Of a stretch of 64,000 nucleotides of DNA, positions 5,609 through 64,000 are shown in pieces. Each line of letters opens with the position of its first letter. The first letter of the stretch is position 1. Both the position numbers and the translations under genes were made by a program. The notes beneath the pieces are model-generated. The model was not told the origin of the DNA, searched no databases, and worked only from the letters and a program-made list of their open reading frames with translations. Source of the DNA: an uncultured Clostridia bacterium (GTDB taxonomy: Bacteria; Bacillota; Clostridia; Christensenellales; UBA1242); contig CANQOO010000003.1 in assembly GCA_947625515.1 (NCBI GenBank), positions 93,222-157,221 of the forward strand, given 5' to 3'.

Positions 5609-6097
5609 ATGAGAATTTTAGGAATTGACCCAGGATATGGCATTGTGGGCTTTGGCATCATCGACACGCACAGAGATAACGCCGTCGTGGACTATGGGGT
5701 GATTGAGACGCCTAAGGAAGAAAGCTTTCCAGTTCGACTGCAACGAATTGAGGAGAGTTTACGAGTGCTTTTCGAAAGATACAGGCCGGACGAGGTGGCG
5801 ATTGAAGAGCTTTTCTATTTCCGCAATCAAACCACCGTCATTCCAGTTGCGGAAGCCCGCGGGGTGATTGTGCTGACCGCCACGAAGCATTGCGAACGCA
5901 TTTTTGAATACACTCCAATGCAAATCAAGCAGGCCTTGACAGGCAACGGCCGCGCGGACAAGAAACAGATGCAATTTATGGTCAAGGCGGTGCTGGGGCT
6001 GGAAAAAATTCCAAAGCCGGACGATGCCGCGGATGCCCTTGCCGTCGCACTATGTCACAGTCAAATCAATCCAAGACTGAACGACAATATGATTTAA
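5609..6097 (+). CDS. ruvC: Holliday junction endonuclease RuvC
   Basis: 162 residues, the usual length. The RNase H-like fold begins MRILGIDPGYGIVGFG (first catalytic Asp in GIDPG), has Glu in AIEELFY and ends with the acidic pair in KPDDAADALAVALCH. It cuts Holliday junctions symmetrically after branch migration by RuvAB, whose genes follow. Its promoter lies so close to the ATG that the mRNA is probably leaderless. Confidence 0.95.
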   Translation: MRILGIDPGYGIVGFGIIDTHRDNAVVDYGVIETPKEESFPVRLQRIEESLRVLFERYRPDEVAIEELFYFRNQTTVIPVAEARGVIVLTATKHCERIFEYTPMQIKQALTGNGRADKKQMQFMVKAVLGLEKIPKPDDAADALAVALCHSQINPRLNDNMI

Positions 6098-6269
6098 AAC
6101 CCCGTTTCTTATGAGGTTGCTTCATTTTTGAAGTTTCATAATTTTAGAAATTACATAATTTGTGAAACTACATAATTTGAAGTTACATAATTGAAGAAAA
6201 ATTCGGATAATGCGATATAAGCCAAAATTTGTTACAAGGCGGAAATCAACAAAAAAAGGATGAACAAAA

Positions 6270-6869
6270 ATGATATCATTTCTTGTCGGAACTATTGAAG
6301 AAAAAAATGAAAATTTGCTTGTGTTGGACGTGAATGGCGTGGGCTATGAGATGACAATTTCCAACAACACACTTGCAAGTTTGCCCATGGAAGGGGAAAC
6401 TGTGAAAGTTTTAACATATCTGCAAGTGAGCGAAAATGTGGGAGTATGCCTGTATGGTTTTGCAACGGCAGAAGAAAAGGCGATGTTCGAAAAACTCATC
6501 ACCGTCTCTGGAATTGGCCCAAAAAGTGCCATTGCTGTGCTTTCCGGCGTGAAACTTTCCGAACTTATGACCGCCATCGCAAGCGGAGATTCAACCGCAC
6601 TTTCCAAAGTGAAGGGGCTTGGCAAGAAAAGTGCGGAACGCATTTGCCTGGAACTGAAAGATAAAATCACCGCCGTTTCGCTGGGCGGATTTGACGATTT
6701 GCCGCTGATGGAAAATATCAACGAGGGCGTTTTGAACGACGCCGTGCAGACTTTGATAAGTTTGGGCGTCAATAAAAACGAAGCATATCGTCTTGCACGC
6801 AGCAAAATGACCGAAAATTGTACCGCAGAAGAAATCATCCTGAAAGTGCTCAAAGAATATGGAAAATAA
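6270..6869 (+). CDS. ruvA: Holliday junction branch migration protein RuvA
   Basis: 199 residues. It has an N-terminal OB fold, two helix-hairpin-helix motifs (ISGIGPKSA-type and VKGLGKKSAERI) and a C-terminal domain III that contacts RuvB. Tetramers hold the four-way junction while RuvB pumps DNA. The start is preceded by AAAGGATG. The 170-base gap after ruvC contains short AT-rich repeats of ACATAATTTG. Confidence 0.95.
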   Translation: MISFLVGTIEEKNENLLVLDVNGVGYEMTISNNTLASLPMEGETVKVLTYLQVSENVGVCLYGFATAEEKAMFEKLITVSGIGPKSAIAVLSGVKLSELMTAIASGDSTALSKVKGLGKKSAERICLELKDKITAVSLGGFDDLPLMENINEGVLNDAVQTLISLGVNKNEAYRLARSKMTENCTAEEIILKVLKEYGK

Positions 6870-9486: not shown

Positions 9487-10662
<1,176 letters not shown>

Positions 10663-11243
10663 AAGAAAAAAGAATTATAGATATAGACGATTAAAACAAA
10701 AAGCAATAAAAAATGGACTTTTTGCATATATCGTAGGAAGAAGTTTTTACAGCCAAGAAAATGGCTGCAAACAAGACTTTGCGGAATCTTTTAAATGGAA
10801 TAAATACGGATTTGAAACTCTTCACGACCCGCGATGTCAATATGGTTATGCAATGTTTTATTATGACGATGGCGAAAGTGAACCAGAAGGTGTAGTCGAA
10901 AAAGATAATGATTATGCAAACAAACTTTTTGCCGATGCTTATGCAAAACTGAAAAACTTGGCAAAGAATGACATGTATGCCAATTTCATTTTAGGAGCGT
11001 ATCATAACTATGAAATTGGCGGGAAGAAGAAAGATTTTTCATGTGCCATAAAATTTATAAGAAAAAGTGCGGATTTGGGTCATTCAGGGGCTTGCTATGA
11101 TATGGGCAAATTTTACAAGGAGGGCACGGGGTTAAAAAAATGAGTGCTTAAGCCTCAAATATTTTAAAAAAGCTGCACAACTTGGCAACATTAGGGCAGA
11201 AGAAGAAATTAAAAACTTTGATAATAGAGAAAAATCCAATTAA
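10663..11243 (+). pseudogene. Sel1-like repeat protein remnant, frameshifted
   Basis: Translation after tgt gives a helical-repeat protein with Sel1 (TPR-like) units such as CAIKFIRKSADLGHSGACYDMGK. There is no in-frame ATG near the 5' end; the only upstream one (10568) lies inside tgt, so the 5' end looks lost. At a run of seven A (about 11127-11140) the frame stops, but the -1 frame continues as another Sel1 unit, CLSLKYFKKAAQLGNIRAEE, ending at 11243. This fits a decayed gene; a programmed -1 shift on the A-run is a weaker alternative. It sits just outside the phage attachment site. Confidence 0.65.
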
Positions 11244-11312: not shown

Positions 11313-11334
11313 ATCTATTCGCAAAAGACAGGTT
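11313..11334 (+). repeat. attL: left copy of the 22-bp prophage direct repeat
   Basis: Exact copy of 16498-16519; the core reads CTATTCGCAAAAGACAGG. Bases outside differ immediately on both sides (C versus A before, A versus T after), so the identity is exactly 22 bp. It marks the left boundary of the gokushovirus prophage. TATTCGCAAAA is reminiscent of a XerC-binding arm (bacterial dif arms often contain TTCGCATAA), but the opposite arm is poor. Confidence 0.85.
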
Positions 11335-11342
11335 AGGCAAAT

Positions 11343-11356
11343 GTATACGCAAGTAT
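11343..11356 (+). promoter_or_regulatory. Operator-like site upstream of phage structural genes
   Basis: GTATACGCAAGTAT, 13 of 14 bases identical to GTATACGCGAGTAT at 16261-16274 near the start of the RHH transcript. It contains the inverted half-sites ATAC and GTAT with a 4-base gap, a size suited to a ribbon-helix-helix protein. It lies between attL and the first phage ORF. The operator role is an inference. Confidence 0.55.
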
Positions 11357-11390
11357 GCATTTTTTTAATTAAAAAAACGGGAGGGGAGTA

Positions 11391-11720
11391 ATGGTAAACG
11401 ATGCCACATTTTGGACAACTATTGCTTCGGCAGCAGTTGGAATTGTTATGTCTGTTGTATCTGTTCTCATCAACAAGAAAAAGAATAAATCTCAAAAATT
11501 GGTGGAGCTGGCTAAAATTGCTCAAAAACTGCCTGAGTTTATTTCTGAAGCTGAAAACATCTTTGGGGCTGGGAATGGAGCAGCTAAACTGACTTACGTG
11601 CTCAACAAGGTGCAAATCGAATGTTTGAAAAACAATGTCGAATTCAATGAAGAACAATTCAAGGGCGAAATCGAGAACATTTTGAGCACACCAGAAAAGA
11701 AGGTGCCGAATGCTGACTAA
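11391..11720 (+). CDS. Phage membrane protein, possible holin-like
   Basis: 109 residues. One N-terminal transmembrane segment (about residues 7-27, ending in the basic INKKKNK) is followed by a soluble helical domain with LNKVQIECLKNNVEFNEEQFKGEIE. The single N-terminal anchor plus charged helical tail recalls LLH-type phage holins, but I do not recognise a specific family. Strong ribosome binding site (GGGAGGGGAG). It is the first gene of the phage operon. Roles in lysis, or in inhibition of wall synthesis as in other microviruses, are possible but unproven. Confidence 0.75.
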   Translation: MVNDATFWTTIASAAVGIVMSVVSVLINKKKNKSQKLVELAKIAQKLPEFISEAENIFGAGNGAAKLTYVLNKVQIECLKNNVEFNEEQFKGEIENILSTPEKKVPNAD

Positions 11721-11799
11721 GAAAAAGCTTAAAGAACAAATCGACGAACTCAACAAAGAGATAAAAATCTTAAAAATGATTATCAATTCAATCAAATAA
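11710..11799 (+). CDS. 29-aa phage ORF, coiled-coil-like
   Basis: The start codon overlaps the last codons of the preceding ORF. The product MLTKKKLKEQIDELNKEIKI... is a short Lys/Glu-rich amphipathic helix with heptad-like Leu/Ile spacing. It is too small for family assignment. Translation is plausible because of tight packing between neighbours, but it could also be incidental. Confidence 0.4.
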   Translation: MLTKKKLKEQIDELNKEIKILKMIINSIK

Positions 11800-11809
11800 A
11801 GGAGAAAAA

Positions 11810-11929
11810 ATGAAAAAACGAAAAATGACAAACAAATCGCGTGACCGTGCAGTATTTGAAGTCACGGCCAACAAAATTCACAAGAAAAATCTTGACACAA
11901 GTTATCCAAAAGGAGGAATTAGATTATGA
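11810..11929 (+). CDS. Gokushovirus VP8, J-like DNA-packaging protein
   Basis: 39 residues, strongly basic, beginning MKKRKMTNKSRDRAVFE and ending KGGIRL. The C-terminal GGIRL-type ending and the NKIHKKN region match the small VP8 proteins of gokushoviruses, counterparts of the phiX174 J protein that accompanies the ssDNA into the capsid. GGAG ribosome binding site nine bases upstream. Its stop overlaps the VP5 start as ATGA, implying translational coupling. Confidence 0.75.
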   Translation: MKKRKMTNKSRDRAVFEVTANKIHKKNLDTSYPKGGIRL

Positions 11930-12177
11930 AACTTGAAATGTTTGCAGTTAAAGATGCAGTGCAAGGGGAGATGATGAACCCATTTTTGCTGAGAAACAAA
12001 GAAGAAGCAAAAAGAACTTTCAAAGCAGCTGTAAATTCCGGAAAGGACAGCAACATCTGCATTTACTACAAGGACATGCAGTTATACAGCCTGGGGGAAT
12101 ATGACTCAATCACCGGCGAAATCACATCCAATGTCGAATATGTTTGCAGTGGCTTGGATGTAAAAGAGGAGGAATAA
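11926..12177 (+). CDS. Gokushovirus VP5, non-structural protein
   Basis: 83 residues. MKLEMFAVKDAVQGEMMNPF, then NKEEAKRTFKAAVN and YSLGEYDSITG, follow the pattern of gokushovirus VP5 (ORF5) proteins, which typically keep an LGxxD segment. The family is thought to take part in ssDNA synthesis or switching to packaging, though its exact role is uncertain. It overlaps VP8 upstream and is followed within two bases by the VP3 start. Confidence 0.8.
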   Translation: MKLEMFAVKDAVQGEMMNPFLLRNKEEAKRTFKAAVNSGKDSNICIYYKDMQLYSLGEYDSITGEITSNVEYVCSGLDVKEEE

Positions 12178-12729
12178 ATGACAGAATTTAAAAGTTTTGT
12201 AAATCCACACGAGCCTCACAAATTTGCTGAGGGCGGATTCAAGGAAACAGTAGACGTGTATGAAGACATAATCAATACGAAGACTGGAAAGCTTGAAACA
12301 AAGAAAACGAAAGAGGAAAATTTCTACTCGAAAATTCAAGAAATGAAAGACAGCCAAACTTTGGAAAACATCTTGAAACGATACAACATCGACCTCAATG
12401 AAAGACATATCACGGAAATCAATGACGAAATCGTTGATATGACCAACATTCCAGAGGACTTGATTGAAACATATGCTCTTTCGAAAAAGCTGGAAACAAT
12501 ATTCAACGAATCGAGTGTGCAAATCAAAAATCACTTCGGAGATTTTGCAGGATTCTTGAAAAGCTTTCAAAGTGGGAAGTTGCAAAGCGAGCTGCAAGCT
12601 CTAAGCACAAAACCAAGGATGCAAGAGGCACAGGTGACTGAACAAGTGACACAAGGTCAAGCACAACCACAACCAGCACAACAAGTGCAACAAAATCAAC
12701 CAGCACAAGGAGGATTAATATATGGCTGA
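12178..12729 (+). CDS. Gokushovirus VP3, internal scaffolding protein
   Basis: 183 residues. The N-terminal FVNPHEPHKFAEGGFKET region and the central DIVDMTNIPEDL-like segment match internal scaffolding proteins of gokushoviruses, which guide procapsid assembly and leave the virion. The C-terminus is a Gln/Pro/Ala-rich tail (about residues 150-180), probably disordered. Its end overlaps the VP1 start by eight bases. Confidence 0.9.
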   Translation: MTEFKSFVNPHEPHKFAEGGFKETVDVYEDIINTKTGKLETKKTKEENFYSKIQEMKDSQTLENILKRYNIDLNERHITEINDEIVDMTNIPEDLIETYALSKKLETIFNESSVQIKNHFGDFAGFLKSFQSGKLQSELQALSTKPRMQEAQVTEQVTQGQAQPQPAQQVQQNQPAQGGLIYG

Positions 12730-14419
12730 TAACAGACAATTTGTCGAAAACATCGCACAGCTTATAAATCGACAGCAAAGAACAAAATTCAGTATGACCG
12801 GCAACAATGGCGGACTGAAACTTATGACCATGAACAAAGGCTATCTCTATCCGGTATTCACACAAGAAGTTTTGCCGGGTGACACATGGAAAATCAATGT
12901 CAAAGCACTAATTCGAGCAACAACCATGATTAAGCCTATCATGAACAACATGTGGGCACAAATTCAATGCTTCTTCGTGCCAAACAGACTGACATGCGAA
13001 CACTGGGAAGAAATCATGGGCGAGAACAAGCAAGGACCCTGGATTACGAACAAGACTACATACGAAGTGCCAAAACTGAAAGCCCCATCCGATGGTTGGA
13101 AAGCAAAAACACTTGCTGACTACCTTGGCGTGCCAACAAAAGTGAAAAATTTGGAAATTAACTCACTTTACACAAAAGGATATGCTCAAATTTGCAATGA
13201 CTGGTATCGAGACGAGGACAGAATGAACTTCACTCACATCACAAAGGACGAGAGCACATTAACCGGTGTGAACACAAACAACTATGTGACCGACATCGAG
13301 CTGGGCGGGGCACTCTTCCCGGTTGCAAAAGCACATGACATCTTCACTTCATCAGCAATTGAGCCTCAAAAAGGGCCAACTGTTATGCTGCCACTTGGAA
13401 ACACAGCACCTGTTATTGGAAATGGAAAAGCGTTAGGAATGGCAATAGCAAACCAAAAAAACAATTACAACATAGAAGAACAAATTATGAGTGTTGGATC
13501 AGTGGGACTAAATGTAGAAACGCCAAACGGTTCCCCTGATAAAGACCCGGCAGGATATCCAATGAACAGATTAACGGTGAGCGGGACAAGTCCACAGGGA
13601 AGAGTAGGGTTAACACAACAACCACAATATTCAGGCATAATAGCAGACTTGTCAAGTGCAGAAGGGGCAAGCATCAACGATTTACGAATTGCTATGGCTT
13701 TGCAACAAATGTATGAACTGGATGCACTGGCTGGGACGAGATACACCGAAATCATTTTCTCACACTTCGGAGTAAAGAGCAGCGATGCAAGATTGCAGAG
13801 AAGTGAATATTTGGGCGGAAAGAAAGTGCCTATCACTGTGACACAAGTAATTCAAAACTCTGAAACAGCAACAACACCACAAGGAAACCTTGCCGGCATG
13901 TCACAAACTTTCGATGGTGATGACTACTTCACCAAATCGTTTGAAGAACATGGCATTTTGTATGTTTTGTGCTGCATTAAAGGTGAAAATATCTATCAGC
14001 AAGGCTTGCCAGCAAAATTCAGCAAGTTTAAAAGAACTGACTATTATGACCCACTTTTTGCAAACTTGGGAATGCAACCAATCTACAACAGAGAAATCTA
14101 TGCCCAAGGAAATGCAAAAGACGACGAAGCTTTTGGCTACAAGGAAGCATGGGCAGAATATCGCTACCTCGACAAAGAAGTTGCAGGCGAATTCAGGAGC
14201 AACTTTGACAAATCAATCGACTACTGGCACATCGCAAGAGACTTCGACAGTCTGCCAACAAATGGTGAAGCTTTCATCCAAGAAGGAAAAGCAAACCTTG
14301 ACAGAGCACTGACAGTGTCAAGTGACGAAAGTGACCAATTCCAATGTGCGTTTGCTTTGGACGCAGTAGTAACACGTGTAATGCCACCACACAGCGTACC
14401 AGGACTTAGACGTTTCTAA
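12722..14419 (+). CDS. Gokushovirus major capsid protein VP1
   Basis: 565 residues, within the usual gokushovirus VP1 range. The jelly-roll capsid protein is recognisable from LMTMNKGYLYPVFTQEVLPGD, IKPIMNNMWAQIQCFFVPNRL, YTEIIFSHFGVKSSDARLQR and the C-terminal RVMPPHSVPGLRRF. Sixty copies form the T=1 shell. The loop at about residues 250-300, with GTSPQGRVGLTQQPQ, lies where gokushoviruses carry variable surface protrusions. Reading frame intact. Confidence 0.96.
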   Translation: MADNRQFVENIAQLINRQQRTKFSMTGNNGGLKLMTMNKGYLYPVFTQEVLPGDTWKINVKALIRATTMIKPIMNNMWAQIQCFFVPNRLTCEHWEEIMGENKQGPWITNKTTYEVPKLKAPSDGWKAKTLADYLGVPTKVKNLEINSLYTKGYAQICNDWYRDEDRMNFTHITKDESTLTGVNTNNYVTDIELGGALFPVAKAHDIFTSSAIEPQKGPTVMLPLGNTAPVIGNGKALGMAIANQKNNYNIEEQIMSVGSVGLNVETPNGSPDKDPAGYPMNRLTVSGTSPQGRVGLTQQPQYSGIIADLSSAEGASINDLRIAMALQQMYELDALAGTRYTEIIFSHFGVKSSDARLQRSEYLGGKKVPITVTQVIQNSETATTPQGNLAGMSQTFDGDDYFTKSFEEHGILYVLCCIKGENIYQQGLPAKFSKFKRTDYYDPLFANLGMQPIYNREIYAQGNAKDDEAFGYKEAWAEYRYLDKEVAGEFRSNFDKSIDYWHIARDFDSLPTNGEAFIQEGKANLDRALTVSSDESDQFQCAFALDAVVTRVMPPHSVPGLRRF

Positions 14420-14430
14420 GGAGGTGAAAA

Positions 14431-14844
14431 ATGGGTTTTCTTGAAGGAATAGGCTCAGCAGTAAATGACCTATTCGGAACGACAACAACAAACAACTTCA
14501 ACGCCCAACAAGCTCAGATACAAAGAGACTGGGAAACACAAATGTCAAACACAGCTTATCAAAGAGCAGTGGCAGACATGAAGGCAGCAGGTCTAAACCC
14601 AGCAATGATGTATCAAAGCGGGGGACAGGGTGCAAGCACTCCGTCGGGAGCAAGTGCAAGCGGAGTAAGAAACGGAATGACGATGGACCTGATAGGTTCC
14701 ACAGCAAACCTGGTGAACTCAATCACAAATGCAAGGCGAGTTGATGCAATGACCAAGTCAAACGAAATGAAGGCAAGCAATGCTACAAGACTTTACAAGA
14801 CCACAGAAAAAATTGCAAATATGCTAGCAAAATTCATGGCTTAA
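14431..14844 (+). CDS. Gokushovirus VP2, DNA pilot/minor spike protein
   Basis: 137 residues, shorter than many VP2 proteins. The N-terminal hydrophobic segment FLEGIGSAVNDLFG is followed by the family signature SNTAYQRAVADMKAAGLNPAMMYQSGG and a Gly/Ser/Ala-rich stretch. The rest is a helix-forming polar C-terminus. In microviruses the pilot protein helps deliver DNA through the envelope. GGAGG ribosome binding site 11 bases after VP1. Confidence 0.92.
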   Translation: MGFLEGIGSAVNDLFGTTTTNNFNAQQAQIQRDWETQMSNTAYQRAVADMKAAGLNPAMMYQSGGQGASTPSGASASGVRNGMTMDLIGSTANLVNSITNARRVDAMTKSNEMKASNATRLYKTTEKIANMLAKFMA

Positions 14845-14967
14845 AATCAACAAAGGTGACAATGTGGTGTCACCTAGCCACTAAATAAACAAGTATATAT
14901 TTGTGGCTAGTTTATATATTAACGTGCACGCACGCACGCGTGAGAGCGTGTATAAACTTTGTTGATT
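14845..14967. other. Predicted four-way-junction structure between VP2 and VP4
   Basis: An 11-bp perfect outer stem, AATCAACAAAG (14845-14855) with CTTTGTTGATT (14957-14967), encloses three hairpins: GGTGACA/TGTCACC (14855-14861/14868-14874), CTAGCCAC/GTGGCTAG (14874-14881/14903-14910), and TTTATA/TATAAA (14911-14916/14951-14956) whose loop holds a CACGCACGCACGCG run. It fills nearly the whole gap between the two genes. It could fold as a cruciform, as ssDNA or as RNA. A role in replication origin, packaging or translation control is inference. Confidence 0.7.
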
Positions 14968-14986
14968 TTTAAAAGAGAGGTGCAGA

Positions 14987-16021
14987 ATGGCAAGTTGTCC
15001 AAGACCAATGCATGCTTTCTACACCGGTGAAAAGACCGCCACAGGTGGTGAAAAAATGATTTTCACATCGAGATTCCAAGAAGAGGTGAAATACATGCAC
15101 CACCTGCCAAAAGGCGGTGATGTGGAGGTAACACTGGTCGATTATGTCGAAATTCCTTGCGGAAAGTGCATGATTTGCAAGGCCAATCAAGCTAAAAAGA
15201 AAGGCGAGCGAGCAATGGCTGAGGCAAACACATGGGAGCATAACGAAGTCATAAATCTGACCTACAATGATGAAAATCTGCCAACGAACACAAAACCGGA
15301 TGGCACAAAAGTCGCGACTTTAAGATACAAAGATGTCCAAGACTTCAAAAAAAGGCTTTTGAAAACTTGGAAAGAAAAATACAATGCAACAGGAATAAGA
15401 TTTTTATGTGCTTGTGAATATGGCGAAAAATATCAAAGGCCACACTACCATCTGATTATGTTCAATTTTGAGGCACAGGACAAAAAATTCTATGGCTACA
15501 CCAAAAAAGGTTCAAAAGAATATGGCAGCGAAGAAATTGCCAAAATTTGGGGCAAAGGCAACATAACACTTGGAGAAGTCACTCCGGAGACGATTCAGTA
15601 TGTTGCAAACTATTGCTTGAAAAAATTCAAGGGAAAAGAAGCAAAAGGAATTTACAAAGAGCTTGGAGTTGAACCGGAAAGCGTCAAATCAAGCAATAGA
15701 AGGGGTCTAGGAGCCAATTTTATAGAAAAACGTGTGGAGATATATAAAAACACCGGAAAATGCTTTCTAGGCACCTTCAACGGGCTGAAAACGATAGGTG
15801 TGAACAAATACTATGACCAAATGGTGGCAGATATCTATGGGGAAGATGTCTTGAAACAACTCAAAGAGGAAAGAATGAAGCTTGCATCAGACAGAGAGAA
15901 AACAAGAGCATTCATTTCGGGAATTGAAATTGAAACACAAAGACAAAATGACGAAAGAATATTCCTAGAGCGAATAAAAAAAGCAAAGGGAGGACGACAA
16001 TTTCAAAACACAGGCTATTAA
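14987..16021 (+). CDS. Gokushovirus VP4, rolling-circle replication initiator
   Basis: 344 residues. VP4 nicks the replicative form to start rolling-circle synthesis. The HUH motif is RPHYHLIMFN (about residue 150), the N-terminal Cys motif is PCGKCMICK, and the likely catalytic Tyr pair is in QYVANYCLKK. GLGANFIEK is also typical of the family. AGAGAGG ribosome binding site upstream. It is the last gene of the structural/replication block and is followed directly by a terminator. Confidence 0.95.
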   Translation: MASCPRPMHAFYTGEKTATGGEKMIFTSRFQEEVKYMHHLPKGGDVEVTLVDYVEIPCGKCMICKANQAKKKGERAMAEANTWEHNEVINLTYNDENLPTNTKPDGTKVATLRYKDVQDFKKRLLKTWKEKYNATGIRFLCACEYGEKYQRPHYHLIMFNFEAQDKKFYGYTKKGSKEYGSEEIAKIWGKGNITLGEVTPETIQYVANYCLKKFKGKEAKGIYKELGVEPESVKSSNRRGLGANFIEKRVEIYKNTGKCFLGTFNGLKTIGVNKYYDQMVADIYGEDVLKQLKEERMKLASDREKTRAFISGIEIETQRQNDERIFLERIKKAKGGRQFQNTGY

Positions 16022-16035
16022 GCTTGTGTTTTTTT
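16006..16035 (+). terminator. Terminator after VP4
   Basis: AAACACAGGCT (16006-16016), a four-base loop and AGCTTGTGTTT (16021-16031), followed by a run of T. The left arm overlaps the end of the VP4 coding sequence. Confidence 0.85.
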
Positions 16036-16175
16036 ATGCCCTCTGCTCGGGCCGGGCGGGCCCGCAAAGATCCTATGGCCGGATAGGCCGAGCGAGGAAG
16101 CAGTGGGCCTCAGGGCCGGCCAGGCTCATGCAAGCAGGCAGTCTCCAAGGGTCCGTCAGCATGGGGCAAAGAAAG
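16036..16175. other. GC-rich, palindrome-rich non-coding island in the prophage
   Basis: After the VP4 terminator the base composition jumps to strongly GC-rich within an AT-rich phage. It contains nested inverted repeats such as GGGCCGGGCGGGCCC, GGCCGGATAGGCC and GGGCCTCAGGGCC. No ORF was seen. Such structure in a microvirus could be an origin, a packaging signal or a conversion signal; which is not determinable here. Confidence 0.6.
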
Positions 16176-16223
16176 GGAAAAAATTGCTGCTAGAAAATTT
16201 TTTGAAAAATTTGATAAAATTGC

Positions 16224-16274
16224 TTGACAAGGTGTAAACACTTGTGCTACTAATATTAGCGTATACGCGAGTAT
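16224..16274 (+). promoter_or_regulatory. Promoter and operator-like sites of the phage RHH gene
   Basis: TTGACA (16224-16229) and an extended -10 of the type TGCTACTAA (TACTAA 16248-16253, spacing 18). The palindrome GTGTAAACAC (16232-16241) lies between the two boxes. GTATACGCGAGTAT (16261-16274) lies at the expected transcription start and matches the site at 11343. The layout fits autoregulation by the RHH protein; this is an inference. Confidence 0.6.
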
Positions 16275-16312
16275 TACAATTTGCCAATTAAAACATTAAA
16301 AGGAGGTGAATA

Positions 16313-16453
16313 ATGAAAAACATTCCATATTGCATTAGATTAAAGGAAGAAACTTTGAACAGTGTAAAAGAAGTCGCAAAAGCAAAAAAAAGACCAACAG
16401 GGCAATTATTAAGAATAATCATTGAAGATTACATCGAAAAAATAAACCTATAA
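16313..16453 (+). CDS. Small ribbon-helix-helix (CopG/Arc-like) DNA-binding protein, candidate phage repressor
   Basis: 46 residues: MKNIPYCIRLKEETLNSVKEVAKAK..., with a short N-terminal strand (YCIRL), two helices and a PTGQLLRIIIEDYIEK second helix, the classic RHH layout. It has a perfect AAAGGAGGTG ribosome binding site and its own promoter with palindromes. It is the last gene before attR and transcribed separately from the capsid genes. Standard gokushovirus genomes carry no such regulator that I know of, so it is the best candidate for holding the prophage silent. Function inferred, not shown. Confidence 0.8.
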   Translation: MKNIPYCIRLKEETLNSVKEVAKAKKRPTGQLLRIIIEDYIEKINL

Positions 16454-16479
16454 ATTTTTGGGCGACAAAACAATATTTT

Positions 16480-16489
16480 AAGTATACTT
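16480..16489. promoter_or_regulatory. Palindrome next to attR
   Basis: AAGTATACTT, a perfect 10-bp palindrome containing the same AGTAT/ATACT half-sites as the putative operators. It lies nine bases before attR. In the excised circular genome it would lie upstream of the capsid operon, on the other side of the attachment core from the 11343 site. Confidence 0.4.
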
Positions 16490-16497
16490 TGTAATAA

Positions 16498-16519
16498 ATC
16501 TATTCGCAAAAGACAGGTT
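16498..16519 (+). repeat. attR: right copy of the 22-bp prophage direct repeat
   Basis: Identical to 11313-11334 over 22 bases. Host sequence resumes after it, and the first host feature is an interspersed palindromic repeat at 16541. Excision between the two copies would restore a single site downstream of the Sel1 remnant. Confidence 0.85.
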
Positions 16520-16540
16520 TTACGCAGAGATAGGCTAGAT

Positions 16541-16911: not shown

Positions 16912-17325
16912 TCACACATATTTGATTGGTTTCTTGGCGGAGCTTTTGATTTGCTTTTCTTTCTTTTTGTAATAGTCCTCAATGGCCGCTTTGATGCTTT
17001 CTTCCGCCAAAATTGAGCAGTGAATTTTGTGTGGAGGAAGTTCGCCCAAGAGGTCGATGACCTGTTTGTTGGTCACTTTCAGGGCCTCATCAATGGTTTT
17101 GCCCTTAATCAAGTCGCACGCCATATCGGTTGAAGCGATGGCGGCACAGCACCCAAAAGTCTTGAATTTGGCGTCTTCAATGATGCCTTCGTCGTTTATT
17201 TTGAGATACATTTTCATGATGTCTCCGCAGGCAGCGTTGCCCACTTCGCCGATGGCGTTTGCCCCACGCAAAGCCCCCGCGTTGTGCGGATTTTGGAACC
17301 TGTCGATTACCGTTTTACTGTACAT
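16912..17325 (-). CDS. iscU: Fe-S cluster scaffold protein IscU/NifU N-terminal type
   Basis: 137 residues from the ATG at 17325, which is preceded by AAAGGAGG; longer versions overlap iscS. Three conserved cluster-ligand Cys are visible in GNAACGDIM, FGCCAAIAS and KIHCSILAEE. It receives sulfur from the IscS product of the gene just upstream (11-base overlap) and assembles clusters for transfer to apoproteins. No IscR-type regulator gene is adjacent. Confidence 0.93.
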   Translation of the reverse strand: MYSKTVIDRFQNPHNAGALRGANAIGEVGNAACGDIMKMYLKINDEGIIEDAKFKTFGCCAAIASTDMACDLIKGKTIDEALKVTNKQVIDLLGELPPHKIHCSILAEESIKAAIEDYYKKKEKQIKSSAKKPIKYV

Positions 17326-18508
17326 TTTTCTTAACCTCCTTTTCTGGTTGAATTGGGGAAATTGCCCGCAGTTGTGCGACCACTTTTTGAAGTTGGTCGA
17401 TGACATAATCCACATCAGATTTTGAAATATTTGTGCCGAATGAAAATCTGACAGAACCTTGTGCGATTTCGTCCGGAACGCCCATAGCTTGCAGCACGTG
17501 CGATGGAAGCAGCGACCTTGATGTGCAAGCCGAGGCGGTGGAAACGCAAATTCCCGCCATGTCCAAAAGCATCAAGATGCTCTCGCCCTCAATTCCATAG
17601 AATGAAACATTCGCGATGGCGTTGGATTTTTGCTGAGGATGGCCGTTCACCTGATAATATTCCACTTTTTCTGCAAGTTTTTCAAGGAAATAGTCGCGAA
17701 TGCTCTTCAATTTTGCATTGGTGACAGCAATGTTTCGAGTGGCAATTTCAATCGCCTTTCCGAAGCCCGCGATGCCCGGGACATTTTCAGTGCCGGAGCG
17801 TTTGCCGCGTTCTTGGCTTATTCCGCCAAAAGTGATTGGGTCAATTCGCACGCCGTTTTTGACGTAAAGTGCCCCCACGCCTTTTGGCCCGTGAATTTTG
17901 TGAGCGGACATGCTCATAAGGTCAATTTCCATGTCCTGCACGTCCATTTTCACATGGCCGATGGCCTGCACGGCGTCGGTGTGGAACAAAATTTTATAGT
18001 CATGTGCAATTTTTGCAATCGCCTTGACGTTTTGGATGGTTCCAACTTCGTTGTTGACCGTCATGACTGAAATTAAAATGGTGTCCTTGCGGATGGCGTG
18101 CAAAAGTTCCGCCAAATCCACAAGCCCGTGCTTGTCAACAGGCAAATAAGTGATTTCAAAGCCCTCTTTCTGCAACTGTTCGCAGGCGTGCAGCACAGCG
18201 TGATGCTCGATTGAACTGGTGATGATGTGTTTGCCCTTGTTGGCGTTGGCGTGAGCCACCCCAATCAATGCCCAGTTGTCCGCCTCAGTGCCGCCGCTGG
18301 TGAAATAAATTTCGTTCGCTTTTGCGGCGTTTATGGCGTTCTTCACACGGTCGCGAGCACGGTCAATGATTGCTACCGCCTCTCTACCCAGCGAATGCAA
18401 CGAGCCGGCATTGCCGTAAATGGTGTTGAAGCACGGCAACATTTCGGTCATGACCTCGTTGGAAACATATGTGGTTGACGCATTGTCAAGATAGATTTTT
18501 CTTTCCAT
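17315..18508 (-). CDS. iscS: Cysteine desulfurase (IscS/NifS)
   Basis: 397 residues. PLP enzyme turning cysteine into alanine plus enzyme-bound persulfide. Visible landmarks are the N-terminal YLDNASTT, TSSIEHHAVLH, the PLP-lysine region SMSAHKIHGPKGVGALY, SGTENVPGIAGF and the active-site Cys loop STASACTSRS. It overlaps iscU, showing a dedicated iscSU unit. A second desulfurase (46770-47927) sits next to thiI and probably serves tRNA thiolation. Confidence 0.95.
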   Translation of the reverse strand: MERKIYLDNASTTYVSNEVMTEMLPCFNTIYGNAGSLHSLGREAVAIIDRARDRVKNAINAAKANEIYFTSGGTEADNWALIGVAHANANKGKHIITSSIEHHAVLHACEQLQKEGFEITYLPVDKHGLVDLAELLHAIRKDTILISVMTVNNEVGTIQNVKAIAKIAHDYKILFHTDAVQAIGHVKMDVQDMEIDLMSMSAHKIHGPKGVGALYVKNGVRIDPITFGGISQERGKRSGTENVPGIAGFGKAIEIATRNIAVTNAKLKSIRDYFLEKLAEKVEYYQVNGHPQQKSNAIANVSFYGIEGESILMLLDMAGICVSTASACTSRSLLPSHVLQAMGVPDEIAQGSVRFSFGTNISKSDVDYVIDQLQKVVAQLRAISPIQPEKEVKKNVQ

Positions 18509-34104: not shown

Positions 34105-34264
34105 GCGTATTTGCCAGCTTTATGAGTTTTCTTTTGTCGAATGAGCGTTGTTGGTCGCCCTTCTGCTGCATCACCCATGCTTCTACATTGGGAAAAAGTT
34201 GAAAAAAGAAAAATGCAAGCACCAAATTTATTCGCAAAATCTTTATGAAAGTTGTTGAAAAAAT

Positions 34265-34293
34265 TTGCAAAAATTTCCAGCATGCTTTATAAT
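34265..34293 (+). promoter_or_regulatory. Promoter of the tyrosine recombinase, leaderless type
   Basis: TTGCAA (34265-34270), a 17-base spacer and a perfect TATAAT (34288-34293). The first in-frame ATG after the expected start is at 34300, six bases after the -10 box. No Shine-Dalgarno is possible for that start. Confidence 0.7.
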
Positions 34294-34299
34294 GAAAGC

Positions 34300-35346
34300 A
34301 TGAAAAACATGTCATTTGTGCAGGAACGCGACCTGAAAAACATGCGAAAAATTGGCTCTTATCTTGAAGCACTGCCGGAATATTGTTTTGATTTTTTCAC
34401 TGGCATTGAAAACAACACTTCCACCCTCACCCGCGTCAATTACGCCATGGACCTTTCTGTGTTTTTTGACTATTTGGAAAAATATGTGTGCAAAAAGCCA
34501 AAAATTGAAATTTCTCTAAGCGACTTGGAACGTTTGCAGGCACGCAACATCGAGAATTATCTTTCCTATTTGTCCTACTATGAAATCAACGACAAAATGG
34601 AGAAAAATGGCGAGCGTGGCAAGGCAAGAAAACTTGCAAGTGTGCGAAGTTTTTTTAAATATCTTTTCGACCACGATATGCTTTCCAGCAATGTTGCAAG
34701 CAAAATTAAGACGCCCAAACTGCACACGAAAGAAATCATTCGCCTGGAAAAAGACGAGGTTGAGCGGATGTTGGATGCGGTGCAGTCACCGTCCACTTTC
34801 ACGGAGCATCAAAGAAATTACAACAAAAACACGCAAATTCGCGACAACGCCATTGTCACACTTTTCCTAGGCACTGGCATCCGAATTTCGGAACTTGTCG
34901 GGCTGAATGTGGAGGATTTTGACTTCTCGCAGAAGGCATTCAAGGTCACACGCAAAGGTGGCAATCAGACCATCCTATATTTTTCTCTGGAAGTGGAAAA
35001 CGCCCTGAGGCCATGGCTGGAAAAACGCAAGACGCTGGGGCTAGACCCCGACGAGCATGCCATGTTCGTCTCTTTGCAGAACAAGAGAATATGCGTGCGA
35101 GCGGTGGAAAATTTGGTGAAAAAGTTTGCCAAAGAAAGCACCCCGCTGAAAAAAATTTCCCCACACAAACTCCGCTCCACATTTGGCACAAATCTATATC
35201 GCGAAACACAGGACATCTACATTGTTGCGGACGTTTTGGGACATAAAGATGTAAACACAACCAAAAGGCACTACGCCGCAATCAACGAAGATATGCGAAG
35301 AGCTGTGGCGAACAAAGTGAAAATCCATGCCGGAAACGCAGAGTGA
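34300..35346 (+). CDS. Tyrosine recombinase, XerC/XerD-like
   Basis: 348 residues from the ATG at 34300. N-terminal SAM-like core-binding domain (TRVNYAMDLSVFFDYLEKY) and a catalytic domain with all key residues: first Arg in FLGTGIRISELVGL, Lys in TRKGGNQ, His-x-x-Arg in SPHKLRSTFGTNLY, His in VLGHKDVNTT and nucleophile Tyr in KRHYAAINED. It looks like the chromosomal Xer recombinase resolving dimers at dif rather than a phage integrase, because its neighbours are housekeeping genes. It is a plausible enzyme for integrating the gokushovirus. Slightly longer than typical Xer (~300 aa). Confidence 0.88.
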   Translation: MKNMSFVQERDLKNMRKIGSYLEALPEYCFDFFTGIENNTSTLTRVNYAMDLSVFFDYLEKYVCKKPKIEISLSDLERLQARNIENYLSYLSYYEINDKMEKNGERGKARKLASVRSFFKYLFDHDMLSSNVASKIKTPKLHTKEIIRLEKDEVERMLDAVQSPSTFTEHQRNYNKNTQIRDNAIVTLFLGTGIRISELVGLNVEDFDFSQKAFKVTRKGGNQTILYFSLEVENALRPWLEKRKTLGLDPDEHAMFVSLQNKRICVRAVENLVKKFAKESTPLKKISPHKLRSTFGTNLYRETQDIYIVADVLGHKDVNTTKRHYAAINEDMRRAVANKVKIHAGNAE

Positions 35347-62870: not shown

Positions 62871-64000
62871 TTATTCTGGCATTGTTGTTGACACACTGTG
62901 AACGTAGCCCACGCCGGACGGCTTCTGGCAAAGAAGTTCTGTGTATTTAACAAGCGTTGCACTGTATGCCGGCTTGTCAGCAAATTGTTTCAAAATTCTG
63001 CCGTTCTGGTCTTCCAGCCATTTCCAATCGCCAAGTTCGTAGAATGTGAAGTCATCTGTGTTCAAGAAGTATGCTTCACCTGCGGCAACATGGTTTGTTG
63101 GAACAATTGGTGTGCCAAAATGAGTCAGCACTTTCATGCCGTCTTCAAGAGTGGTGTAGGAAATGTTTTTGTTGTAGGTTGTCAAGTATTTTTGATACAA
63201 CCTTTTAAGTTCGTAAGAGCAGTTGATGAAGTTGACAGATGTCCCTTTCATTTCAAGGTCATCAATCACTTCTTGCACGAAGTCCTCGTCGAATGCCTTG
63301 CTTGTTCCATCAATTGTTGTGGCGTTCATGACAGGATAGCTTGTGCGATTTACGCCATAAAGTTCAGTGTTCTTTGCAATTCCTTTCAGCCCAACAATTT
63401 CGCCGCCCTTAGAGCCGTGAACATAAATCTCGTCATTTGCAGCAAGTTCAACGCTGCCGTCAAACTCGATGGTCTTGGCAATTTTGTCAACCGCTTTCAC
63501 GCGGACGTTGCTCTGTTTTGGAGATTCTCCGGCCTGAGCATAGATGTCCACACGCATTCCTGGGGCAACCGCTTCCGCGTTGGAAATTTTCTTTCCTTCC
63601 ACGTCAGTAACAGTTGCAAGAAGCCCTGTGCCATCGCCATAAATCATTCTTGAAAGATTGAAGATGCTGGCTTTAAGCAGGCTGTCCATGCCATCTTGCA
63701 GGACGTTTACAAAAGAATTTACATCGGATGAAGCACAACGAACAGCTTTATCGCTGACTTCAAATCTTCCGTAAAGGTTTTTAAGTGGTGCAACAAAAGA
63801 AAGATATGGAGTGTCCACACCGGCAGGAAGTGTTGCATCCTCTGCCCCTGCCATAATTCCGCCATTGATGCCAACTGGGGCAACAACGCGAACCTCTCTT
63901 CCCACGATGTTTCTGGTGCTGCGTTTAATGCGAGAGAACAGTGGGTTTGTTTTTGTGTTTATCTGGTCTGCAATCACGCCAAGATAAACGTCTTTAAGCA
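62871..64000 (-). CDS. Phage major capsid protein, HK97-like (5' end outside window)
   Basis: The frame stays open to the window edge (LKDVYLGVIADQINTKTNPLF...), so the GTG at 63977 is internal and the gene continues to the right. NPLFSRIKRSTRNIVGREVRVVAPVG and LYGRFEVSDKAVRCASSDVNSFVNVLQDGM, then a long beta/alpha region ending KYTELLCQKPSGVGYVHSVS, are typical of HK97-fold capsid proteins in Firmicutes phages. About 376 residues are visible. Confidence 0.85.
   Translation of the reverse strand, partial: LKDVYLGVIADQINTKTNPLFSRIKRSTRNIVGREVRVVAPVGINGGIMAGAEDATLPAGVDTPYLSFVAPLKNLYGRFEVSDKAVRCASSDVNSFVNVLQDGMDSLLKASIFNLSRMIYGDGTGLLATVTDVEGKKISNAEAVAPGMRVDIYAQAGESPKQSNVRVKAVDKIAKTIEFDGSVELAANDEIYVHGSKGGEIVGLKGIAKNTELYGVNRTSYPVMNATTIDGTSKAFDEDFVQEVIDDLEMKGTSVNFINCSYELKRLYQKYLTTYNKNISYTTLEDGMKVLTHFGTPIVPTNHVAAGEAYFLNTDDFTFYELGDWKWLEDQNGRILKQFADKPAYSATLVKYTELLCQKPSGVGYVHSVSTTMPE

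Follow-up and report, generated by a model that had tools for sequence, protein, structure and literature searches.

The window analysed here, a 64,000-nucleotide stretch of contig CANQOO010000003.1 from an uncultured Clostridia bacterium, contains at 11313-16519 an intact gokushovirus prophage, a 5,185-bp unit bounded by exact 22-bp direct repeats. We consider it likely that this is a temperate gokushovirus that was inserted at the chromosomal dif site by the host Xer recombinase and is silenced by a ribbon-helix-helix (RHH) repressor encoded beside the attachment site.

An intact gokushovirus at a predicted dif site

All core gokushovirus genes (the VP4, VP5, VP3, VP1, VP2 and VP8 set) were found with open frames in a genome of about 5 kb. 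Judged by the sequence of its capsid protein and by its gene set and genome size, the phage is a member of the Gokushovirinae. Its VP1 is 38% identical to that of phiMH2K, which is assigned to this subfamily by its record, and both were placed in a VP1 tree of 35 rows. The original prediction had claimed a complete gokushovirus prophage in a Firmicutes-type chromosome, with VP1-VP5 and VP8 intact and host genes on either side. This was borne out by the exact repeats, by profile matches for VP1-VP5 and by a basic 39-aa VP8-like open reading frame (ORF), as well as by the flanks, which read queA, tgt and a shortened Sel1-repeat ORF on the left and iscU and iscS on the right. The seven phage ORFs scanned with Pfam and PHROG profiles included no recognisable integrase.

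We then considered the insertion site itself. A third copy of the 22-bp repeat was not found at up to 3 mismatches in the whole host genome (G000), a 1.11-Mb draft in 11 contigs that is 80.67% complete. Across the flanks the host site reads ATCTATTCGCAAAA-GACAGG-TTTTACGCAGAGAT, a 14+6+14 palindrome with a 6-bp core and arms matching at 11/14 positions. When the prophage was deleted in silico from the 157-kb contig, the cumulative G-C peak lay 85 bp from this site, and the GC skew around it was +0.097 on the left and -0.114 on the right. The direction of most recognisable genes flips at the same point, although some genes further to the right, xer among them, deviate. Because of the palindrome, the switch in GC skew and the single copy, the site was read as dif, with the 22-bp repeat as a dif half-site at the predicted replication terminus. 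With a predicted dif insertion, a duplicated core and no integrase of its own, the phage classifies by sequence as an integrative mobile element exploiting Xer (IMEX). Insertion at a tRNA site was ruled out because searches of the window for Rfam families and tRNA genes gave no matches.

A dif-like site with at most 3 mismatches to the pattern was found in 56/197 genomes of the host family, always as a single copy per genome, and the reversed-pattern control gave 0 in every row. Empty copies of the site were located beside iscU in G142 and G131 and in the iscU-tgt gap of G187, and the relatives with an unoccupied site next to iscU include genomes of the same genus. It was noted that the left host arm in the window (11313-11326) matches the phage arm exactly and is not the palindromic partner of the right host arm (16518-16531), unlike in the same-genus genome L039, where both arms match. 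This mismatch is perhaps the result of gene conversion between the two junctions.

The window also encodes a 364-aa Xer-type tyrosine recombinase, 18 kb from dif. Its best NCBIfam model was the XerS equivalog (NF003462), with 177 bits against a cut-off of 267, and it is thus classed as XerS-like and not as XerS. Four PF00589 matches were obtained in the host genome, of which one is full-length and the rest are a partial frame and fragments. Exactly one tyrosine recombinase was found in G034 (100% complete) and G049 (98%), and the remaining five of the seven relatives tested had 2-8 PF00589 matches. The distance between xer and dif is about 3-5 kb in G034, G059, G053 and G049 and about 13 kb in G131. 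From sequence, a single-Xer host system is likely, and the recombinase that acts on the prophage is likely to be the protein encoded at 34252-35346.

Sister prophages and the orientation of insertion

A search for the same insertion in other Clostridia found sister phages at the iscU-side dif of two further assemblies, Candidatus Caccovivens faecavium (L009) and the uncultured Clostridia metagenome-assembled genome (MAG) Lapin-005 bin60 (L010). In this search their VP1 proteins were 71% (L009) and 78% (L010) identical to that of the window phage. Both lie inverted relative to iscU when compared with the window phage, and the core on the phage plus strand is CCTGTC in both sisters and GACAGG in the window. 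Conservative recombination requires matching cores, and the orientation of a prophage should therefore follow from its core, as is the case for all three. In 13/13 readable sites (window, L009, L010, L011, L014-L017, L073, L090-L093) the rep/RHH side has the better dif arm, at 0-2 mismatches, against 2-7 in the other arm. Insertion would therefore leave one complete dif, on the regulator side.

Across the wider family, a dif-linked phage was present in 6/8 genomes with a VP1 match. In the other two, G617 and G083, the matches lie on contigs of 3,591 and 5,410 bp that carry phage genes only, and no dif-like site was seen there. The more distant family prophages of G053, G049 and G072 adjoin dif-like sites, those of G053 and G049 within contigs of 117,813 and 99,090 bp. 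An order-wide search found VP1 in 3/396 genomes, all of the same family and the host's own included, and a class-wide search found PF02305 in 4/391 genomes (2 above the cut-off, own included).

Two of the related sequences have unusual junctions. In L017, the prophage of G049, the duplication is exceptionally long, with exact stretches of 23 and 42 bp at 6213-6278 and 11552-11617, as if the phage had carried a piece of the host flank. The 7,707-bp contig L011 (IMGVR_UViG_3300029705_002556) carries two identical copies of a 114-bp repeat, at 1 and at 5670, which are followed by two divergent versions of a helix-turn-helix (HTH) gene and early genes. Either two related gokushoviruses lie there in tandem at a dif-like site, or the contig was joined during assembly.

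A ribbon-helix-helix gene beside attP

The last gene of the prophage encodes a 46-aa protein. A 31-sequence RHH profile compared with the PDB matched the CopG-family chain 6iya_A (E 2.2e-4) and CopG itself (1b01_A, E 0.028). The AlphaFold2 model had a mean predicted local distance difference test (pLDDT) score of 92.1, with helices at residues 12-24 and 29-45; in this monomer an extended N-terminus precedes the two helices, the strand itself not being assigned. PutA, Arc, AmrZ and CopG chains were among the top ten Foldseek ranks at probabilities of 0.97-1.00, and no match of the model reached E <=0.001 (best E 0.047). By profile and predicted fold, the protein is placed among the Arc/CopG RHH regulators.

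We examined free phage genomes for the position of this gene. The closest relatives were PQ006699.1 (5,221 bp, Neotoma faeces) and MZ089778.1 (5,259 bp, Marmota faeces), both deposited as circular, with VP1 78% and 77% identical to that of the window phage; the VP1 identity of the free circular relatives was 76-78%. In both, a dif-like attP separates the RHH gene from the holin-like gene or its equivalent. The RHH profile found 6/22 genomes in a set of these two and 20 further free genomes, one of which (ON840020.1) is recorded as linear, and the next best match had an E of 0.017. A dif-like attP lies 2-36 bp past the RHH stop codon in 6/6 RHH-positive genomes and was found in 0/16 RHH-negative genomes and in 1/110 Markov control sequences.

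In the reverse test, the dif-core pattern alone picked 24 viral-contig stretches (18 + 6), and VP1 was present in only two of these (L064 and L073), so that the dif-like 18-mer alone is a weak finder. In L073 (5,563 bp, with a 127-bp terminal overlap) an RHH gene (E 4.3e-14) adjoins the dif-like site. L064 is the same contig as L011 and has Cro/C1-type genes. In both L017 and L011 the att site is present and a Cro/C1-type HTH gene replaces the RHH gene (HTH_3 E 3e-17, 1.7e-15 and 5.3e-13). On the VP1 tree, five changes of the RHH label are required, of which at least three cross well-supported branches, with gains and losses indistinguishable.

Predicted operators and exchange of the regulator segment

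The motif GTATACGCRAGTAT has three matches in the window at up to 2 mismatches, with 0.15 expected: two precede the RHH gene (16253 on the - strand, 16261 on the + strand) and one precedes the structural genes (11343). A motif common to the RHH and structural promoter regions was detected in 5/6 phages at p<=0.032 (L016 0.30; combined 6e-7). Across ten phages, the phages' own promoter pairings were reached or beaten by 2/20,000 permuted pairings. The motifs differ between phages yet recur within each phage upstream of both the RHH gene and the structural genes, as expected for a repressor and its operators. A repressor role of the RHH protein is predicted from these shared motifs.

Compared with L010, with which it forms the closest pair of phages, the window phage has protein identities of 82% for the holin-like protein, 82% for VP1, 82% for VP4, 70% for VP3 and 69% for VP2, and 35% for the RHH protein. 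Mean identities over ten phage pairs were 38% for RHH and 78% for VP1. It was noted that blastn similarity between the window phage and L010 ends between rep and the junction. The sequences fit a segment of regulator, operators and attP that is either exchanged between phages or fast diverging. For the flipped core, a 6-bp inversion between the palindromic arms was found less fitting than replacement of the RHH-attP segment, because the nucleotide similarity to L010 stops there and RHH is at 35% against 82% for VP1 and VP4.

Proposed mechanism and alternative explanations

Under the proposed mechanism, a circular double-stranded form of the phage would be recombined into the host dif by the host Xer. 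The attP near the RHH gene would have one good dif arm and one degenerate arm, and insertion would leave a complete dif on the repressor side plus a weak site on the other, with the asymmetric core hexamer setting the orientation. The RHH repressor would bind its own promoter and that of the structural genes, whose operon would continue to rep, and regulator gene, operators and attP may travel as one exchangeable segment. A broader view, which may well prove too wide, is offered tentatively: gut gokushoviruses of Christensenellales-type Clostridia might carry an exchangeable lysogeny cassette (RHH or Cro/C1 repressor, operators and dif half-site). These 5-kb single-stranded DNA phages would then be genuinely temperate and form immunity groups, with an orientation fixed at the terminus and a single-Xer host exploited.

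Several observations weigh against the temperate mechanism. Excision and a circular form of the window phage are predictions from sequence. The RHH protein alone falls below the Pfam cut-offs (RHH_1 E 0.01), and 141/197 family genomes are without a site at up to 3 mismatches of the dif pattern. The host genome is 81% complete and has a second partial recombinase frame as well as fragments. The six RHH-positive free genomes, three of which (L090-L092) were chosen after RHH matches and none for dif, are also among the nearest by VP1, and the RHH-attP link is therefore partly kinship. The shared motif is weak or absent in L016, L092 and L093, and for each of L010, L090, L092, L093 and L016 at least one pairing with a region from another phage gave a higher score. 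In nine phages the pattern TGTN2-3ACA is 20-fold denser in promoter regions (22 in 1,502 bp vs 33 in 45,152 bp elsewhere), a post hoc pattern that was derived from the same sequences and catches some TTGACA boxes. The palindrome at 11340-11363 with its T-run looks like a terminator, an alternative to the operator, and a sigma-70 promoter scan gave no clear excess (19 vs 13.5 +/- 3.3).

Plasmid CopG is a copy-number regulator, and CopG is among the closest solved relatives of the RHH protein, which by fold also resembles RHH antitoxins. The protein could thus be a copy-number regulator or autoregulator of replication, or an orphan antitoxin-like protein, and not a lysogeny repressor. The operator-like motif pair at its own promoter would suit such a role, as would the HTH gene that stands in its place in two related phages. 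We nevertheless consider this rather unlikely, given that the motif recurs before the structural genes and co-varies between phages and that RHH tracks attP in the 22 free genomes and L073; the phage ORFs that were scanned included no recognisable toxin gene. A decaying relic would agree with the excision being a prediction and with the finding of VP1 relatives in only 4/101 genomes of the host genus, own included; G639 and G579, whose contig coordinates match the L009 and L010 records, are among them. However, all frames are open, and the structural genes appear to be under purifying selection. Against the relatives compared, nonsynonymous divergence (dN) is 0.12-0.29 in VP1, VP3 and VP4, and synonymous divergence (dS) is at least 1.2 or not computable because saturated, a contrast tempered by the many pairs in which dS is saturated or has no value. 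Together with the free circular relatives noted above and a near-unit-length contig of 5,036 bp in the phage's own VP1 cluster (90% level), this makes a relic improbable.

The second partial tyrosine-recombinase frame and the fragments in the host genome leave room for insertion by another recombinase, or by illegitimate recombination. This appears very unlikely in view of a site identified as dif by palindrome, skew and single copy, with exact junctions and occupation of the same site in three genomes. A draft of this completeness and contig number might also join a free phage to a chromosome during assembly or binning. Such a chimera is scarcely credible, as sister phages with Xer-type junctions occupy this site in two further assemblies, relatives in other genera (G053, G049 and G072) adjoin dif-like sites, the first two inside long contigs, and host relatives carry empty copies of the site.

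Relation to known systems and significance

Gokushovirus prophages at dif, including Xer-dependent lysogeny in enterobacteria, are a known kind. The Enterogokushovirus prophages of Escherichia (EC6098) are integrase-less and lie at dif, and excision and pseudolysogeny have been shown for them (eLife 2020, PMC7062461). They resemble the window phage in lacking an integrase and being dif-adjacent, and in the dif of the EC6098-type phage the spacer and one arm are likewise described there as the more variable parts. They differ in requiring both XerC and XerD and in having 4.3-4.7 kb and six genes, whereas the host of the window phage likely has one Xer, and the phage has an RHH and a holin-like gene. 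The same paper counts 48 genomes with dif-like motifs among its gokushovirus MAGs, and it reports that no such prophage turned up in genome sequences from other bacteria. The BMV proviruses of Bacteroidetes are described in part of PMC3091885 (PLoS One 2011) as also integrase-less and at dif-like sites; they belong to a different group of microviruses, and their hosts to a different phylum. Neither of the two main texts contains the word "repressor".

The original prediction had held that lysogenic gokushoviruses are described mainly in Enterobacteriaceae and Microviridae prophages otherwise in Bacteroidetes. This is partly outdated: a passage of PMC9239249 (mBio 2022) reports microvirus prophages in Erysipelatoclostridium and Mammaliicoccus sciuri isolates, called the first in Gram-positives, without calling them gokushoviruses. 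The claim that Firmicutes have no microvirus prophages was rejected on this basis. Those prophages are Firmicutes microviruses like that of the window, and the relevant sections of the paper do not describe mechanism or regulators. The IMEX phages of Vibrio cholerae (VGJphi and TLCphi type) hijack the host Xer in a similar way, and the attP of TLCphi also has one good and one divergent arm; they are filamentous, with another capsid family, and use XerC/XerD, and the IMEX passages of the Xer review (PMC5357621) deal with XerC/XerD hosts.

Searches of open-licence papers on gokushovirus repressors, Microviridae RHH proteins and gokushovirus prophages in Clostridia or Firmicutes gave no title that describes this system. 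The host group, the probable use of a single Xer, the presence of both orientations at one site and the predicted regulator-attP lysogeny cassette look new. Gokushoviruses are common in gut viromes, and for few of them is a host or a route to dormancy known. The integration site connects free circular genomes of one clade with a host genus. The candidate switch is small, one 46-aa gene plus short operators, and testable in vitro, and the relation of dif core orientation to prophage orientation is now directly testable.

Annotated features and further observations

Table 1. Positions of annotated and predicted features in the window
Feature	Position	Strand	Evidence or remark
Host tgt, left flank	9526..10662	+	L010 orthologue 85%
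Direct repeats, exact 22 bp	11313-11334 and 16498-16519	+
attL, left junction	11313..11334	+	host arm + core GACAGG (11327-11332) + beginning of degenerate phage arm
Predicted operator GTATACGCAAGTAT upstream of structural genes	11343..11356	+	within hairpin 11340-11363, then T-run
Holin-like membrane protein, 109 aa	11391..11720	+	PF09682 E 1.8e-6; phrog_6918 E 2.7e-11
VP8-like basic DNA-binding peptide, 39 aa	11810..11929	+	translation; PQ006699.1 equivalent annotated DNA binding protein
VP5	11926..12177	+	PF20577 E 1.2e-18
VP3 internal scaffolding protein	12178..12729	+	PF09675 E 5.6e-13
VP1 major capsid protein, 565 aa	12722..14419	+	PF02305 E 7.7e-136
VP2 pilot protein, 137 aa	14431..14844	+	phrog_11693 E 1.8e-26
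VP4 rolling-circle replication initiator, 344 aa	14987..16021	+	PF23343 E 1.6e-16; phrog_942 E 5.1e-76
-35-like TTGACA of presumed RHH promoter	16224..16229	+	by eye near motif; absent from consensus-scan output
Predicted operator pair upstream of RHH	16253..16274	- and +	- strand 16253-16266 (2 mismatches), + strand 16261-16274
RHH protein, 46 aa, predicted lysogeny repressor	16313..16453	+	profile and predicted fold
attR, right junction	16498..16519	+	intact phage arm + core GACAGG (16512-16517) + beginning of host arm
Host dif right arm TTTTACGCAGAGAT, completes regenerated dif	16518..16531	+
Host iscU/nifU-type scaffold, right flank	16912..17415	-	TIGR03419 E 4.8e-51, 172 bits, cut-off 188
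Host Xer-type tyrosine recombinase, 364 aa, presumed integrase	34252..35346	+	NCBIfam XerS NF003462 E 3.3e-52

The holin-like gene occurs in a gokushovirus without a recognised endolysin, and it is strongly variable among close relatives (17-82% identity). On the left flank, the Sel1-repeat ORF at 10568-11143, beside tgt, stops earlier than its L010 orthologue. We infer that the window belongs to the genus Caccovivens by way of the matching L009 and L010 records; Caccovivens corresponds to the GTDB genus UBA11517 (order Christensenellales, family UBA1242) in a section of PeerJ 2021 (PMC8035907). Near the contig end, a podovirus-type major capsid protein is encoded at 62871-63977 on the - strand (NF033394 E 2.3e-51), and this gene is probably part of a second prophage, of a tailed phage, that extends beyond the contig.

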